Assembly: GCF_017163705.1 (NCBI RefSeq) | Contig: NZ_JAFIWB010000006.1 | Coordinates: 62,001-126,000, forward strand | Length of the DNA stretch: 64,000 nucleotides | Reading direction: 5' to 3' | Source of the DNA: Xanthomonas bonasiae | GTDB lineage: Bacteria; Pseudomonadota; Gammaproteobacteria; Xanthomonadales; Xanthomonadaceae | Shown here: one piece after another, positions 251-55,127 of the stretch | How positions within the stretch are numbered: the first letter of the stretch is position 1 | Layout: the number at the start of each line of letters is the position of its first letter | Made by a program: the position numbers and the translations under genes | The notes under the pieces: generated by a model | What the model was told of the DNA's origin: nothing | The model's input: the letters and a program-made list of their open reading frames with translations, nothing else | Database searches by the model: none

Positions 251-2236
251 TCAGTCGTGCGCGTCCAGCCACCCCAGCACCTGCGCCGCCAGCGCCTCGG
301 CGTTGTCGCCGTCCGCGCGCAGGTGCAGCTCCGGCTGCTCCGGCGCCTCGTACGGCGAATCGATGCCGGTGAAGTTGGGGATCTGCCCGGCGCGGGCCTT
401 GGCGTACAGCCCCTTCACGTCGCGCGCCTCGGCCACGTGCAGCGGCACGTCGACGAAGACCTCGACGAATTCGCCCTCGGCGAAGCGCTCGCGCGCCATG
501 CGCCGCTCGGCACGGAACGGCGAGATGAAGCTGACCAGCACGATCAGCCCGGCGTCGGCCATCAGGCGCGCCACCTCGGCGACGCGGCGGATGTTCTCCA
601 CCCGGTCCTCGTCGGTGAAGCCCAGGTCGCGGTTCAGCCCGTGCCGCACGTTGTCGCCGTCGAGGATGAACGTGTGATAGCCGAGCGCATGCAGGCGCTT
701 GTCGACCAGATTGGCGACGGTGGACTTGCCGGCGCCGGACAGGCCGGTGAACCACAGCACCTTCGGCGACTGGCCCTTGATCCGCGCGCGCGCGGCGCGG
801 TCCACGTCCAGGTGCTGCCAGTGCACGTTGCCGGCGCGGCGCAGCGCGAAATCCAGCGTGCCGGCGGCGACGGTGGCGTTGCTCTGCCGGTCGATCAGGA
901 TGAAGCCGCCGAGTGCGCGGTTGCGCGCGTACGGCTCGAAGACGATCGACTCGTCCAGCGACAGGTTGCAGTAGCCGACCTCGTTCAATTCCAGGCGCTT
1001 GGCCGCCAGCCGCTCCTGCGTGTTCACGTCGATGCGGTGCTTGATCTCGCTGACGCTGGCCGACACCGTGCGCGTGCCGATCTTCAGCCAGTACGGGCGC
1101 CCCGGCAGCAGTGCGGCATCGTCCATCCACAGCACGTGCGCGGCGAACTGGTCGGCCACCTCCGGCGGGTCGGCGGCGGCGGCGATCACGTCGCCGCGGC
1201 TGATGTCGATCTCGTCGGCCAGGGTCAGCGTCACCGCCTGCCCGGCCACGGCCCGGTCCACGTCGCCAGCGCCGTCGAGCACCCGTGCGACGGTGGAGCG
1301 GCGCGCCGACGGCAGCACCACCACCGCGTCGCCCGGCCGCACCTGGCCGGCCGCGAGCGTACCGGCGAAACCGCGGAACTGCTGGTTCGGGCGGTTGACC
1401 CATTGCACCGGCAGGCGCAGGCCGCTGTCGGCGTCGCGCGCGGCCAGGTCCAGACCTTCCAGGTATTCGAGCAAGGCCGGGCCGCCATACCAGGGCGTGC
1501 GCGCGGACCGCTGCGACAGGTTGTTGCCGTCGAGCGCCGACAGCGGGATGCAGTGCACCTGCGCGATGCCCAGTTGCGCGGCCAGCGCGCGGTAACTGGC
1601 GACGATCGCATCGAAGGTGGCCTGGTCGAAATCGACCAGGTCCATCTTGTTGACCGCCAGCACCACGTGGCGGATGCCGAGCAGCGAGACGATGTAGCTG
1701 TGGCGGCGGGTCTGGGTCAGCAGGCCCTTGCGCGCATCGACCAGCACCACCGCCACGTCGGCGGTGGAAGCGCCGGTGGCCATGTTGCGGGTGTACTGCT
1801 CGTGGCCGGGGCAATCGGCGACGATGAACTTGCGCTTGTCGGTATCGAAGTAGCGGTAGGCCACATCGATGGTGATGCCCTGCTCGCGCTCGGCGGCCAG
1901 GCCGTCGAGCAGCAGCGCGTAGTCGATCTCGCCGCCGCGGGTGCCGTGGCGCTTGCTGTCGGCGCTGAGCGCGGCGAGCTGGTCGTCGAACAGGCGCTTG
2001 CTGTCGTACAGCAGGCGCCCGATCAGCGTGCTCTTGCCGTCGTCGACGCTGCCGCAGGTGATGAAGCGCAGCAGCGGCTTGTGTTCGTGCTGCTGCAGGT
2101 AGGCGGCGACCGCGTCGCCGCCGGGATTCGGGATTCGGGATTCGGGATTCGCAACAGCGTCCCCACCCCTTCCTGCGTCCACGGCGGAAGACTGCCTTTC
2201 CGAATCCCCAATCCCGAATCCCGAATCCCGGCTCAT
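251..2236 (-). CDS. cysN: Bifunctional sulfate adenylyltransferase subunit 1 / APS kinase (CysN-CysC fusion)
   Basis: This is the GTP-binding subunit of ATP sulfurylase fused to adenylylsulfate kinase, turning sulfate into APS and then PAPS in the cytoplasm. The CysN part carries the translation-factor-type GTPase motifs [17 protein letters not shown] and NKMDLVD. The CysC part, in roughly the last 200 residues, begins at a second P-loop, [10 protein letters not shown], and ends DAHD. The start overlaps the cysD stop in TGATG, so translation is probably coupled. The 661-residue product has an odd N-terminus: after Met-Ser, about 37 residues ([12 protein letters not shown]... to ...ESRIPNPG) are encoded by an inverted-repeat element (2121-2231), before the normal sequence resumes at [10 protein letters not shown]. 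The fused CysN-CysC arrangement is known in several proteobacteria. Function is secure; the exact start is inferred from the coupling. Confidence 0.95.
2121..2231. repeat. 111-bp inverted-repeat element with GGGATTC arms, inside the cysN coding region
   Basis: The left arm (2121-2151) is four GGGATTC-type blocks. The right arm (2201-2231) is its reverse complement with one mismatch in 31 bases. The arms enclose 49 bases. The element is 111 bp, exactly 37 codons, and lies three bases inside the cysN start codon, so it extends the protein without shifting frame. A related copy is at 5228-5345 and a single arm at 55093-55123, so this is a dispersed family, not a chance repeat. As RNA it would fold into a long hairpin at the start of cysN. 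Confidence 0.85.
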
Positions 2237-3144
2237 CAGAAATACCCTTCCAACTTCTTCTTCTCCATCGACGCGCCCGGATCCTGATCGATCACCCGCC
2301 CCTGCCGCTCCGAGGTGGTGGTCAGCAGCATCTCGGCGATGATCTTTTCCAGCGTGTCGGCCTGCGACTCGACCGCGCCGGTCAGCGGATAGCAGCCCAG
2401 GGTACGGAACCGCACCTGTCGCCGCTGCGGCACTTCGCCGTCGCGCAGCGGCAGCCGCGCGTCGTCCACCAGGATCAGCGCGCCGTCGCGCTCCACCACC
2501 GGGCGTTCGGCGGCGAAATACAGCGGCACCACCGGAATCGCTTCGCGGTAGATGTACAGCCAGATATCCAGCTCGGTCCAGTTGGACAGCGGGAACACGC
2601 GCACGCTCTCGCCGGCATGGACCCGGGCGTTGTACAGATTCCACAGCTCGGGGCGCTGGTTCTTCGGGTCCCAGCGATGCTTGTCGTTGCGGAACGAGAA
2701 CACCCGCTCCTTGGCCCGCGCCTTCTCCTCGTCGCGGCGCGCGCCGCCGATCGCCGCGTCGAACCGGCCCTGGTCCAGCGCCTGCTTCAGGCCCTGGGTC
2801 TTCATCACGTCGGTATGCACGGTCGCGCCGTGCGTGAACGGGCCGATGTCCTGGGCGATGCCGTCGGGATTGATGTGCACGCGCAGGTCCACCCCGGTTT
2901 CGGCGGCGCGGCGGTCGCGGAACGCGATCATCTCGCGGAACTTCCAGCGCGTGTCCACGTGCAGCAACGGGATCGGCGGAGGCGCCGGCGCGAACGCCTT
3001 CAGCAGCAGGTGCAGCAGCACCGAGCTGTCCTTGCCGACCGAATACAGCAGCACCGGATTGCGGAACTCGGCGGCCACCTCGCGCAGGATGTGGATGCTT
3101 TCGGCCTCGAGCCGGTCGAGGTGGGACAGGGCGGAAGAACGCAT
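2236..3144 (-). CDS. cysD: Sulfate adenylyltransferase subunit 2 (ATP sulfurylase small subunit)
   Basis: This is the catalytic subunit of the heterodimeric ATP sulfurylase. It belongs to the PP-loop ATP pyrophosphatase family and forms APS from sulfate and ATP while CysN hydrolyses GTP. At 302 residues it matches the usual length. The sequence shows the PP-loop [13 protein letters not shown] near residue 40, then [26 protein letters not shown] and the family's C-terminal ending KKKLEGYF. The start is the ATG followed by [14 protein letters not shown], the normal CysD N-terminus. It is the first gene of a cysD-cysNC operon and is divergent from cysJ across about 200 bp. Confidence 0.96.
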
Positions 3145-3351: not shown

Positions 3352-5223
3352 ATGACCGCCGCCTCGCCCGCGTTGCCGCCCAGCCCCTTGCCCGACGAGC
3401 GCAAGGCGCTGCTGGCGCGGACGGTGGAGGGGCTGGATGCGGCCAGCCTGTGGTGGCTGTCCGGCTATGCCGCCGGCCTGGCCCAGGGCCAGGGCCATGC
3501 ACCGCCCTCGCTGGCGGTGTTGCCGGGCGGCGCCGCGACCAGCCAGACCGCGCAGCGGCTGAGCATTGTCTACGGCAGCCAGACCGGCAACGCCCGCCGC
3601 GCCGCCGAGCAACTGGCGGCCGACGCCGAGGCCGCCGGGCTGACGGTCCGCCTGCTGCGCGCCGACGCCTACCCGACCCGCGAACTGGCCAGCGAGCGCC
3701 TGCTGTACGTGGTCATCAGCACCCAGGGCGAAGGCGATCCGCCGGACGACGCGATCGGCCTGGTCGAATTCCTGCAGGGCCGCCGCGCGCCCAAGCTGCC
3801 GGAACTGAAATACGCGGTGCTCGGCCTGGGCGATTCCAGCTACGCCGACTTCTGCGGCATCGGCAAGCGCATCGATGCGCGCCTGGCCGAACTCGGCGCG
3901 CAGCGGCTGCTGCCACTGGGCGAGGCCGACCTGGACATCGACACCGTGGCGACCCCGTGGCGCGCGCAGGCGCTGACGCAGGCGCGCGAGCTGCTGAAGA
4001 GCGCGGCCGCGCCGTCGGCGACGGTGACCCCGCTGCGCAGCAGCGCCGCGGCGGCGTGGAACCACGAGCGCCCGTTCGCCGCCGAGGTGCTGGCCAACCA
4101 GCGCATCAGCGGCCGCGATTTCAAGGGTCCGCGCTATGCCGCGCATGGCAAGGCCGACAAGGACGTGCGCCACCTGGAACTGTCGCTGGCCGGCAGCGGC
4201 CTGCACTACGAACCCGGCGACGCGCTGGGCATCCGCCACCGCAATCCGCCGGCGCTGGTCGAGGCCATTTTGACGGCGACGCGACTCGACGGTCATGCCG
4301 ACGTCACCGTCGATGCGCAGACTCTTCCCCTGCACGAGTGGCTCGCCGCGCATCGCGAACTGACCCGGGCCTCGCGGCCGTTCCTGGCCGCGGTCGCCCG
4401 CCGCTCAGCCGCCCCGGCGCTGGAGCAGTTGCTCGACCCTACCCAGACCGCCGGTCTGGCGGCGTTGCTGGCCGATCACCAGGTGATCGACGTGCTGCGA
4501 CGCTGGCCGGCGGATTGGGACCACAGCGCACTGCTGGAGGCGCTGCGGCCCCTGGCCCCGCGCCTGTATTCGATCGCCTCCAGCCGCAAGCGGGTCGGCG
4601 ATGAAGTCCACCTTGCCGTCGACGTGCTGGCCTACCAGGCGCACGGCCACGCCCATGGCGGCGCGGCCAGCGGCTTTCTGGCCGCCCTGGCCGAAGGCGA
4701 CAGCGCCCCGGTCTACATCGAACCCAACGAACGCTTCCGGGTGCCGGCCGACGCCAGCCGCGACATCCTGATGATCGGTCCCGGCACCGGCGTGGCGCCG
4801 TTCCGCGGCTTCGTGCAGGAACGCGCCGAGAGCGGCGCCGGCGGCCGCAACTGGCTGTTCTTCGGCGCCCGCCACTTCAACCAGGATTTCCTGTACCAGG
4901 CCGAGTGGCAGCAGGCGCTGCGCAGCGGCGAACTGCAGCGCCTGGACCTGGCGTTCTCGCGCGACGTGCAGCCGCTGCGCGACGGCAACGTGCCGGACAA
5001 GGTGTACGTGCAGCAGCGCCTGCGCGAACACGGCCGCGACGTCTACGACTGGCTGCAGAACGGCGCGCACCTGTACGTGTGCGGCGCGATCGGCATGGGC
5101 AAGGACGTCCACGCCACGCTGCAGCAGATCGTGATCGAGCACGGCGCGCGCAGCGCCGAGGATGCAGCAGCCTATCTCACGGCGCTGCAGCGGGAGGGGC
5201 GGTATGCGCGCGATGTGTATTGA
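3352..5223 (+). CDS. cysJ: Assimilatory sulfite reductase (NADPH) flavoprotein alpha subunit
   Basis: CysJ passes electrons from NADPH through FAD and FMN to CysI for the six-electron reduction of sulfite to sulfide. The 623 residues show, in order: a flavodoxin-like FMN domain (about 60-205, with [24 protein letters not shown] and LGLGDSSY), an FAD domain (about 230-450, with RLYSIASS) and an NADPH domain ([34 protein letters not shown], ending ARDVY). Length and order match the family. The chosen ATG precedes [15 protein letters not shown]. It is first in the cysJIH operon and faces cysD. Confidence 0.95.
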
Positions 5224-5227
5224 GGCT

Positions 5228-5345
5228 GGGATTGGGGAGTCGGGATTGGGGATTCGTAAGAGCGCATTTCTGGAGTGTTGCGATCCTTTGCTGTGCTCAC
5301 CCGTCGGTCCGCTTTACCAATCCCGAATCCCAAATCACGAATCCC
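5228..5345. repeat. 118-bp imperfect inverted-repeat element between cysJ and cysI
   Basis: The arms at 5228-5257 and 5316-5345 are built from GGGATT blocks and match in about 24 of 30 positions when one is reverse-complemented; they enclose about 58 bases. This is the same family as the element inside cysN (2121-2231). It fills almost the whole gap between the cysJ stop and the cysI start, ending 7 bases before the cysI ATG. In the cysJIH transcript it could form a hairpin that affects mRNA stability or access to the cysI ribosome-binding site. Confidence 0.7.
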
Positions 5346-5352
5346 TGCTGCC

Positions 5353-28834: not shown

Positions 28835-29211
28835 GCGTGGTCGCCCTGCAGCGACACATGCGCCGATACCACCTTCCAGCCGTCGGCGAAACGCACCCAG
28901 CTCTGGCTCTGCCGGCCGGGCCGGGTCGCGCCCTCGCGCAGGAATTCGGCATCGGCCGTGGCGAAGTCGCGCCCGTAGGCGACGATCTGCACGCGCAACA
29001 GGCGCCGCTGCGGCGACCCGCCGCGGCCGCGGCGGAATGCGCGGATCGCCTCGGCGCCGTACAGCGCTTCGCCGACGCCATAGCGCACCGTGGTCGGCGC
29101 ATCGTGGAACAGACGGTCCAATGCGGCGACGTCGTCGGCCATCAGCGCACGCTCGTAGTCGGCGAACGCCGCCTGCACTTCGGCCAGCACCTCGGGCGCA
29201 TCGACGATCAT
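28831..29211 (-). CDS. hpxZ: HpxZ/AtzH-like protein (DUF3225, NTF2-like fold)
   Basis: A 126-residue protein of the cone-shaped NTF2-like fold, with AFADYERALMADDVAALDRLF, TTVRYGVGEALYGAEAI and a C-terminal SWVRFADGWKVVSAHVS. It matches the HpxZ/AtzH type found with oxalurate-degrading genes in Klebsiella. Its precise role is uncertain; related proteins are reported as amidohydrolase partners or small hydrolases. Here it is separated from the other hpx genes (34515-37552) and sits inside the allantoin operon. Overlaps both neighbours by 4 bases. Confidence 0.8.
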   Translation of the reverse strand: MIVDAPEVLAEVQAAFADYERALMADDVAALDRLFHDAPTTVRYGVGEALYGAEAIRAFRRGRGGSPQRRLLRVQIVAYGRDFATADAEFLREGATRPGRQSQSWVRFADGWKVVSAHVSLQGDHA

Positions 29212-34108: not shown

Positions 34109-34489
34109 TCATTGCGCATGAGGATCGAAATAGGCTTCCCAGGTCGCCGCCGACCCCTGCAGCGTTGCCGCCTGCCGGAAGCGGTCCATGGCCTGGCGGC
34201 GCCTGCCGCTGTTGAGCAGCGCGACGCCGAGATTGAAGTAGGTGTTGCGGTCGTCCGAACGCAGCCGTACAGCGTGCTGCAACACCTCGACCGCATCGCC
34301 GTAGTTCCCCAGATCGCAGCGCACCGCGCCCAGGCAGGTGAGCAGCGCGATATCGTCCGGTGCCGACGCCGCTGCGGCGACGAGCAACGACTCGGCCTGT
34401 GCCAGATGCGCGGAGCAGCGCTGCGGATCGGTCATCGCCGCATCCACCAGCGCTCTGGCGCGGGCGAGGACTTCGCTGTGGTGGGACAT
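34109..34489 (-). CDS. Small TPR-repeat protein
   Basis: A 126-residue helical protein. About three tetratricopeptide-like repeats are visible, the clearest being ALLTCLGAVRCDLGNYGDAVEVLQHA and TYFNLGVALLNSGRRRQAMDRFRQA. No signal peptide or membrane segment is present. It lies between the ggt-like hpxW gene (25 bases upstream) and lysR, so it is probably the last gene of the hpx unit. TPR proteins mediate protein contacts; the partner is not evident. The start is the ATG before SHHSEVLARA; another ATG lies two codons upstream. Confidence 0.75.
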   Translation of the reverse strand: MSHHSEVLARARALVDAAMTDPQRCSAHLAQAESLLVAAAASAPDDIALLTCLGAVRCDLGNYGDAVEVLQHAVRLRSDDRNTYFNLGVALLNSGRRRQAMDRFRQAATLQGSAATWEAYFDPHAQ

Positions 34490-54727: not shown

Positions 54728-55127
54728 GAGACGTCGTTCCCTGGAAAAGCCGTCAAAACTAGCACAGGCGCCGCTACCGCAGGATGGCGAATCGGCATAG
54801 GCGGCTGCGGATTCATGCATGTCTTGCAGACAGTGCGGGACAGTATGCGGACTCGAGGCCGCGCCGGCGCCGCCTCGCCCGTGCCCAGCCGGCGGCGCGG
54901 GCGCGACGCCGGGCAAGCCCGGACTCAGCGCTCCTGTGCTGCTCCCGGCCCTGCCGGACGAAGCCGCCAACACCCGGACAGACACGCCACGCGGTGGCCT
55001 GGCGCTACGACCGGCGCACGCGACGCAGGCCGGCATCGCATCTGGAACCGGGAATGGAGGAAATGCGCGCGTGCCGCAGCGGCACCGCTTTTACGAATCC
55101 CCAATCCCAACTCCCCAATCCCCGCTG
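54728..55127. other. Intergenic region upstream of pyk
   Basis: These 400 bp lie between the HAD phosphatase stop and the pyk start, and should hold the pyk promoter. The middle is GC-rich with only spurious short frames. At 55093-55123 there is one arm of the GGGATTC inverted-repeat family. Nothing else is recognisable. Confidence 0.5.
55093..55123. repeat. Single arm of the GGGATTC inverted-repeat family
   Basis: CGAATCCCCAATCCCAACTC followed by CCCAATCCCCG matches the right arm of the element inside cysN (2201-2231) in most positions. A matching left arm is not found in the 150 bases before it, so this is a solo or decayed copy. It ends five bases before the HAD phosphatase stop codon. 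Confidence 0.6.

Follow-up and report, generated by a model that had tools for sequence, protein, structure and literature searches.

How can a repeat that mostly resides between genes become part of the coding sequence of a core enzyme? This question is raised by the junction of the sulfate assimilation genes cysD and cysN in Xanthomonas bonasiae, located in a stretch of 64,000 nucleotides analysed here (contig NZ_JAFIWB010000006.1, positions 62,001 to 126,000; hereafter the window). At this junction, a palindrome composed of tandem heptamers directly follows the cysN start codon. Comparison of the corresponding sequences in related bacteria makes it highly probable that this heptamer element is translated as part of CysN, that its reading frame is under selection, that its place is set by the cysD stop codon, and that whole elements are exchanged at this site.

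The element spans positions 2120 to 2232 on the minus strand (113 bp) and represents codons 2 to 39 of cysN. Its 5' arm (2198 to 2232) is G-rich in the mRNA and contains four GGGATTS units, while the C-rich 3' arm (2120 to 2154) contains four GAATCCC units. Both arms are 35 nt long, 94% complementary and separated by a loop of 43 nt (2155 to 2197), and a 32-nt core contains a single mismatch (score 29 over 32). The four heptamers of each arm are in tandem, and only GGGATTC and GGGATTG units are present in this copy. The cysN ATG (2236-2234) and the cysD TGA (2238-2236) have one base in common and form a TGATG overlap (2234 to 2238, minus strand). The element begins 3 nt past the cysD stop, immediately after the cysN ATG and in frame with it. 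A first, sequence-only reading of this DNA had proposed a dispersed palindrome in frame at the start of cysN, which is confirmed with the extent and core given here. The stable hairpin that it expected at the site of initiation is borne out as a prediction: the 150-nt region folds with -89.5 kcal/mol (z -7.7), and none of 200 dinucleotide shuffles was equally stable.

The repeat is abundant. GGGATTCGGGATT has 15 matches in the window with up to two mismatches, versus 0.64 expected, and its 20-mer form has 461 matches in the whole genome (one mismatch allowed, overlapping matches counted), while a reversed control has none. In the genome G000, GGGATTSGGGATTSGGGATT has 187 exact overlapping matches and its GGGAAT counterpart 48, with none for the control. 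Together with the fold shuffles, these window and genome counts rule out chance similarity as the source of the palindrome and of the repeat.

Translation of the element is supported by comparison within the genus. We sampled 20 genomes, all of which contain cysN. A heptamer palindrome is present at the cysD-cysN junction in 18 of them; the other two, G001 and G012, lack an element at their junction, which measures 110 nt, and are almost devoid of the heptamer family. The arms are of the GGGATT type in nine genomes, of the GGGAAT type in five (G004, G006, G007, G010 and G011) and of the GGGACY type in four, which we judge to be dialects of one heptamer family. Despite eight distinct lengths between 173 and 245 nt, all 18 element-bearing junctions are 2 mod 3 in length, and the frame is open from the overlapping ATG in every one of them. 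Elements in frame are also found in Xanthomonas populi, where the arms are weakened, and in X. chitinilytica, where the element is decayed and doubtful. The N-terminal tail of CysN varies among the dialects. The possibility that congeners simply carry an unrelated N-terminus of equal length, raised in the sequence-only reading, is therefore not what is found, because their junctions differ in length and element type and two of them measure only 110 nt.

If cysN started behind or inside the element, the element would be untranslated or only partly translated. Further in-frame ATG, GTG or TTG codons do occur in 15 of the 18 copies, at variable positions and almost always upstream of the element or within it; in X. 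bonasiae the sole one is a non-conserved GTG in the loop. A search for a conserved start downstream of the element found no in-frame ATG, GTG or TTG there in 16 of the 18 congeners, the exceptions being G004 (GTG) and G019 (TTG). Three junctions of other genera that contain other palindromes (L032, L161 and L162) have an ATG downstream of the palindrome that shares the frame of the conserved CysN core. However, no alternative start is conserved within the genus, and G013, G014 and G017 have no in-frame ATG, GTG or TTG besides the overlapping ATG. Moreover, an invariable frame with the overlapping ATG would be unneeded if translation began inside or behind the element. A start downstream of the element or inside it is accordingly hardly credible, and the element is very probably translated ahead of the conserved CysN sequence, as had been proposed. 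The resulting tail appears to precede the folded enzyme, since the nearest solved relative (PDB 1zun_B) aligns with CysN only from residue 42 on. The disorder that the sequence-only reading suspected in this tail may be real, as its composition and its location ahead of the fold would suggest.

An internal control is provided by a second element of the same heptamer family (about 5225 to 5348, plus strand), which follows the cysJ stop (5221-5223) and precedes the cysI ATG; the earlier suggestion of a related non-coding copy before cysI is thereby verified. The GTG in its loop (5275) opens a reading frame identical to that of cysI, and the cysI ATG comes after the C-rich arm without an intervening Shine-Dalgarno-like sequence (5225-5350). 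The cysJ-cysI site is occupied at the identical position in the same 18 genomes, including a degenerate copy in G006 that was overlooked by the pattern scan and is visible on inspection, and it is the only other heptamer element found within 20 kb around cysN in these genomes. All three frame classes are represented among its projected lengths (11/5/2), which differs from the uniform cysN site (Fisher p 0.008, relatedness ignored). The frame is thus maintained at the coding copy and varies at the intergenic one. The lengths of 22 complete elements from four 200-kb segments (cysN excluded, orthologues included) are likewise spread over the three frame classes (5/11/6). The gene cluster thus offers a natural experiment, in which one repeat family is present twice about 3 kb apart, once coding and once intergenic, in 18 genomes.

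Why the element lies at this position is largely answered by its relation to stop codons. In the four 200-kb segments and at the G000 loci, 78 gene ends were detected near elements. Of these, 53 lie within -8 to +3 nt of the element edge, and in 42 of the 78 the element begins 1-4 nt past the stop. In these counts orthologous sites were included repeatedly and edges without a detected gene end were excluded; gene calls relied on a GC-by-codon-position score, a crude measure that overlooks some genes. The rule was then applied to two held-out sets of 20 G002 loci, taken near listing order and unused in its formation. Here, a gene stop was found at 22 of 69 edges and for 20 of 42 elements, versus 29/1500 and 27/1500 for random noncoding-looking points. 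The stop-proximity rule is thus real and accounts for about half of the held-out elements. The cysN element, 3 nt past the cysD stop, is an ordinary case of its family, and it is coding because cysN starts on the cysD stop. At 14 of the 78 gene ends, the upstream gene seems to extend 11-62 nt into the element (e.g. G016 116851 and its orthologues), which could give further proteins a C-terminal tail made of repeat sequence.

The sequence-only reading had interpreted the cysN copy as a repeat domesticated in a core enzyme. The part of this claim that concerns translation in a core enzyme stands. A special event in this strain is unsupported, because the repeat belongs to a published family whose preference for stop codons explains its place; the site is filled genus-wide and also in other genera.

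To see how far this arrangement extends, we turn to the wider family. Of 119 genomes searched, 104 have a strong CysN match, five of them in the genus. We inspected 69 junctions, namely 65 of the 99 that belong to other genera and four named loci. A strong palindrome is present in 17 of these 69, of which 11 are of the heptamer type and six of other types (arms classed by eye). All 11 heptamer palindromes are in frame, versus one of the six others (p 0.001, relatedness ignored). Of the remaining 52 junctions, which have no strong palindrome, 47 keep the frame from TGATG and are mostly short. Three copies (L031, L166 and L175) resemble decayed heptamer elements and are in frame. The cysD-cysN junction is a recurrent target for palindromes, with regular read-through confined to the heptamer kind. 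One reason for the latter is found in the units themselves: GGGATT, GGGAAT and GGGACY ending in C or G are stop-free in all six frames, as seen for GGGATT(C/G), GGGAAT(C/G), GGGACTC and GGGACCG. Of 264 unit junctions, 249 have C or G as the seventh base, and an A at this position would create stops. For complete elements in the four 200-kb segments (cysN excluded, orthologues included), a mean of 45% of frames is open. The TGATG overlap was found in 87 of 89 junctions examined, including species without an element, and is therefore probably ancestral. The six unrelated palindromes at this junction, only one of which keeps the frame, occur in L161, L162, L032, L187, L199 and L223.

The variable dialects at a constant site indicate that elements are exchanged. 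Of 12 sites in a 200-kb segment of G016, 11 are filled in G017, and 11 of 14 in the reverse direction. For G005 and G006, all 11 testable sites are occupied, and four of 15 G005 sites have no flank in the G006 segment. In each pair, the dialect differs at six of the 11 common sites (read by eye), cysN included. The arm type at cysN equals the commonest type of the genome in 16 of 18 genomes (shuffle p about 1e-5, phylogeny ignored) and that of the cysI copy in 17 of 18. A cysD/cysN tree, which contains an odd long branch for G019, was used solely to show that the dialects interleave; a tree of the 4 kb downstream was set aside, because it combines rearranged sequence. Loops follow the arms: cysN loops have a median likeness of z 6.6 within a type (52 pairs) and 1.7 between types (101 pairs), and the values for cysI loops are 5.3 and 1.5. 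Since loops are mostly unlike between dialects, whole elements have probably been exchanged, with some doubt for the AAT and ATT dialects. An exchange of arms alone with retention of the loops was rejected for the same dissimilarity. The exchange may proceed by homologous recombination of old alleles or by re-insertion. Old alleles are favoured by the GGGAAT loops, which resemble each other between the two main clades (z 7.9 to 17.3 in six cross-clade pairs).

From these data we propose the following sequence of events. A dispersed heptamer pair would take the site 3 nt past the cysD stop, the usual place of the family, and ribosomes initiating at TGATG would translate through it into CysN. 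The insertion would be tolerable, as the common units are stop-free in six frames and the enzyme fold begins downstream. Purifying selection on CysN would then purge frame-breaking indels. Later, other dialects would replace both arms and the loop together, with the frame kept each time. A Shine-Dalgarno-like GGAAGGG (2245 to 2251, minus strand) is present in the last cysD codons, 8 nt 5' of the cysN ATG, and has GGAGGG(G) variants in G016, G017, G005 and G006. The hairpin or a G-quadruplex past the ATG might further hinder independent initiation and couple cysN to ribosomes that finish cysD. A ribosome at initiation covers the region just past the start codon. The stem of the element begins 3-4 nt past the cysN ATG and thus lies inside the covered region, which would make independent starts poor and cysN dependent on cysD.

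Several observations weigh against this account or parts of it. The 18 element-bearing genomes are related, and their counts are not independent. Of the 42 held-out elements, 22 have no contact with a detected gene stop. GTGATTS units, found in one other genus, contain stops in three of six frames and are nevertheless in frame at cysN. Loops of AAT and ATT copies at cysN have a median likeness of z 3.0 (45 pairs), near the background of 2.7 obtained for cysN versus cysI loops inside one genome, and these loops may share some common ancestry. Coupling is weakened by the presence of TGATG in species that lack the element and by two of the 18 genus copies that have no intact four-tract G motif. 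The comparison of junctions supports two points, namely that ribosomes starting at the overlapping ATG read the element and that its frame is under selection.

Whether the element does more than keep its frame is a separate issue. It could be neutral, selfish or slippage-prone DNA that is merely tolerated, with a functionless RNA and peptide and selection on the frame only. This is the somewhat better bet, and it agrees with a tail that differs between dialects and with the absence of the element from two congeners and most other family members examined. Its long persistence and arms that stay complementary through dialect changes are less expected for such DNA, although whole-element exchange could achieve the same without selection. 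Alternatively, the hairpin or G-quadruplex may be selected as an RNA device for coupling, mRNA stability or stoichiometry, with the peptide as a by-product, which is compatible with translation. The junction is occupied in all 18 genomes that have the heptamer family in number, all dialects fold stably (z -3.7 to -8.3 for the genus, mononucleotide shuffles), and a four-tract G-quadruplex motif is found in 16 of the 18 genus copies and in 23 of 30 copies inspected (motif only). But cysI and most other examined sites are also conserved in position, in agreement with a study on Xanthomonas heptamers (Rehm et al. 2015, PMC4692102), so that retention is not specific to cysN. Furthermore, L031, L166 and L175 combine a decayed appearance with a kept frame. 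Since motif and stable fold are shared by the whole repeat family, they are no proof of a role at cysN. We therefore regard a selected RNA device as possible and rather doubtful, and a purely tolerated element as somewhat more likely. A still bolder idea, that xanthomonads keep a stop-codon-linked hairpin or quadruplex device of interchangeable sequence and value it enough to accept about 35-60 extra cysN codons, we consider improbable.

The two genes at the junction were identified as follows. cysN/cysC (251 to 2236, minus strand) encodes the GTP-binding subunit 1 of sulfate adenylyltransferase fused to adenosine 5'-phosphosulfate (APS) kinase, a protein of 661 amino acids identified by its translation and by Pfam and PDB matches; its Pfam domains are GTP_EFTU, GTP-eEF1A_C and APS_kinase. 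The upstream operon gene (2236 to 3144, minus strand, start predicted from sequence) is named cysD, for sulfate adenylyltransferase subunit 2, from its operon position and from the C-terminal end E(K/Q)KK(L/V/I)EGYF* conserved in congeners. A third heptamer copy is present at 55096-55122 of the window, with just one clear arm detected. Some elements elsewhere are larger or more complex. In L226 (9325-9750 of the joined G016 segment), the 3' arm has expanded to about 32 units of the GGGACY type, GGGATT being the dominant type of that genome. For the G017 orthologue, the two arms add up to about 18 of these units. Nested repeats also occur: the loops at 34190 and 9325 of the joined G016 segment and at 29040 of G005 hold inverted repeats of the GGGGCTTCAGCCCC or GCGGCTGAAGCCGC type.

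How does the element compare with known repeats? Repetitive extragenic palindromes (REPs) are likewise numerous intergenic palindromes, often in inverted pairs, and their associated RAYT transposase genes are always flanked by their own REPs, according to the part of PMC2817692 that was available. Mobilisation of the heptamer elements by such a transposase could be suggested by Y1_Tnp matches, which are present in all 18 genomes with the heptamer family and in neither of the two without it. These matches belong to differing subtypes and not to one gene, and among the 20 of 55 matches whose surroundings were inspected (none of them from G011 or G018), no convincing heptamer element flanks the transposase within 1.5 kb, a single short and degenerate match being the exception. 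The Xanthomonas RAYTs listed in that part of PMC2817692 pair with GTAGGAGCG REPs, whereas the cysN element has no GTAG or GTGG head and its arms are tandem heptamers. Mobilisation by a RAYT-type transposase is thus very unlikely, and filing the element as a REP was rejected on account of the missing head and the lack of a flanking transposase link. Genome G019 contains 21 Y1_Tnp matches of the IS200/IS605 type with near-equal scores (E about 1e-33 to 1e-32), each with one in-frame TAG.

The closest match is the family of G-quadruplex-forming GGGNATC heptamer repeats described by Rehm et al. for Xanthomonas. In the sections of that study available to us, 70 inverted pairs are reported for Xcc and 75 for Xac, sites within 50 bp of a stop codon on the sense strand are favoured, and the gene context is identical for 83% of the repeats between the two species. 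The cysN element has the same G-tract in a 7-nt unit. It also shares the dispersal in large numbers, the convergent inverted pairs, the proximity to a stop (3 nt past that of cysD) and the conserved context. Where Rehm et al. ask for two or more units, usually four GGGANTN, it has four plus four. Their search rule of at least one GGGAATC heptamer does not capture the cysN copy, which fits the heterogeneous GGGANTN form. Because unit length, G-tract, four-unit preference, inverted pairs, stop closeness and gene context agree, we assign the element to this family; the repeat itself is not new. What goes beyond that work is a copy that appears frame-locked and translated across the genus, and the exchange of whole elements between dialects. 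Rehm et al. describe the repeats as mainly intergenic, with an overlap with open reading frames of 11% (Xcc) and 7% (Xac); the available text, supplementary repeat tables aside, contains no reading-frame analysis or translated copy. Likewise, we found no report in the open-access literature, supplements aside, of a translated, frame-locked heptamer copy or of fixed sites with whole-element dialect exchange. Tandem heptamers of the same class, one with the unit TcGGGAA, are also known as 7-nt variable number tandem repeat (VNTR) loci that serve as strain markers of variable copy number in the typing of X. citri (PMC6482255), where the accessible part treats them neither as palindromes nor as coding sequence.

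The role of the heptamer repeats was left to be found by Rehm et al., according to the text at hand, and the cysN site makes the question of their function testable, since the frame there can reveal whether an element was lost, gained or exchanged. The site also illustrates a route from an intergenic repeat to protein sequence, namely an overlapping stop-start combined with stop-free arms, and it calls for caution in annotation, as the N-termini of CysN in the genus are repeat-derived. The nearest functional parallel is provided by the Rickettsia palindromic elements (RPE), which comprise about 150 bp and are read in frame inside unrelated host genes (PMC10969869, as far as available). Like an RPE, the cysN copy lies in frame within a host gene. 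Unlike RPE, heptamer elements are mostly intergenic, and the CysN tail is not conserved between dialects. A large intragenic share as in RPE was not seen among 52 elements (orthologues included): the only one flagged as open throughout, at the cysI site of G017, is an artefact, because the cysJ stop sits at the element edge, and the method is blind to the cysN copies. By analogy, the cysN element would thus work like an RPE without being a member of that family. Taken together, the repeat family and the in-frame reading of repeats were both already known, and the cysD-cysN junction joins them in a well-supported translated copy that is unusual for a core enzyme.
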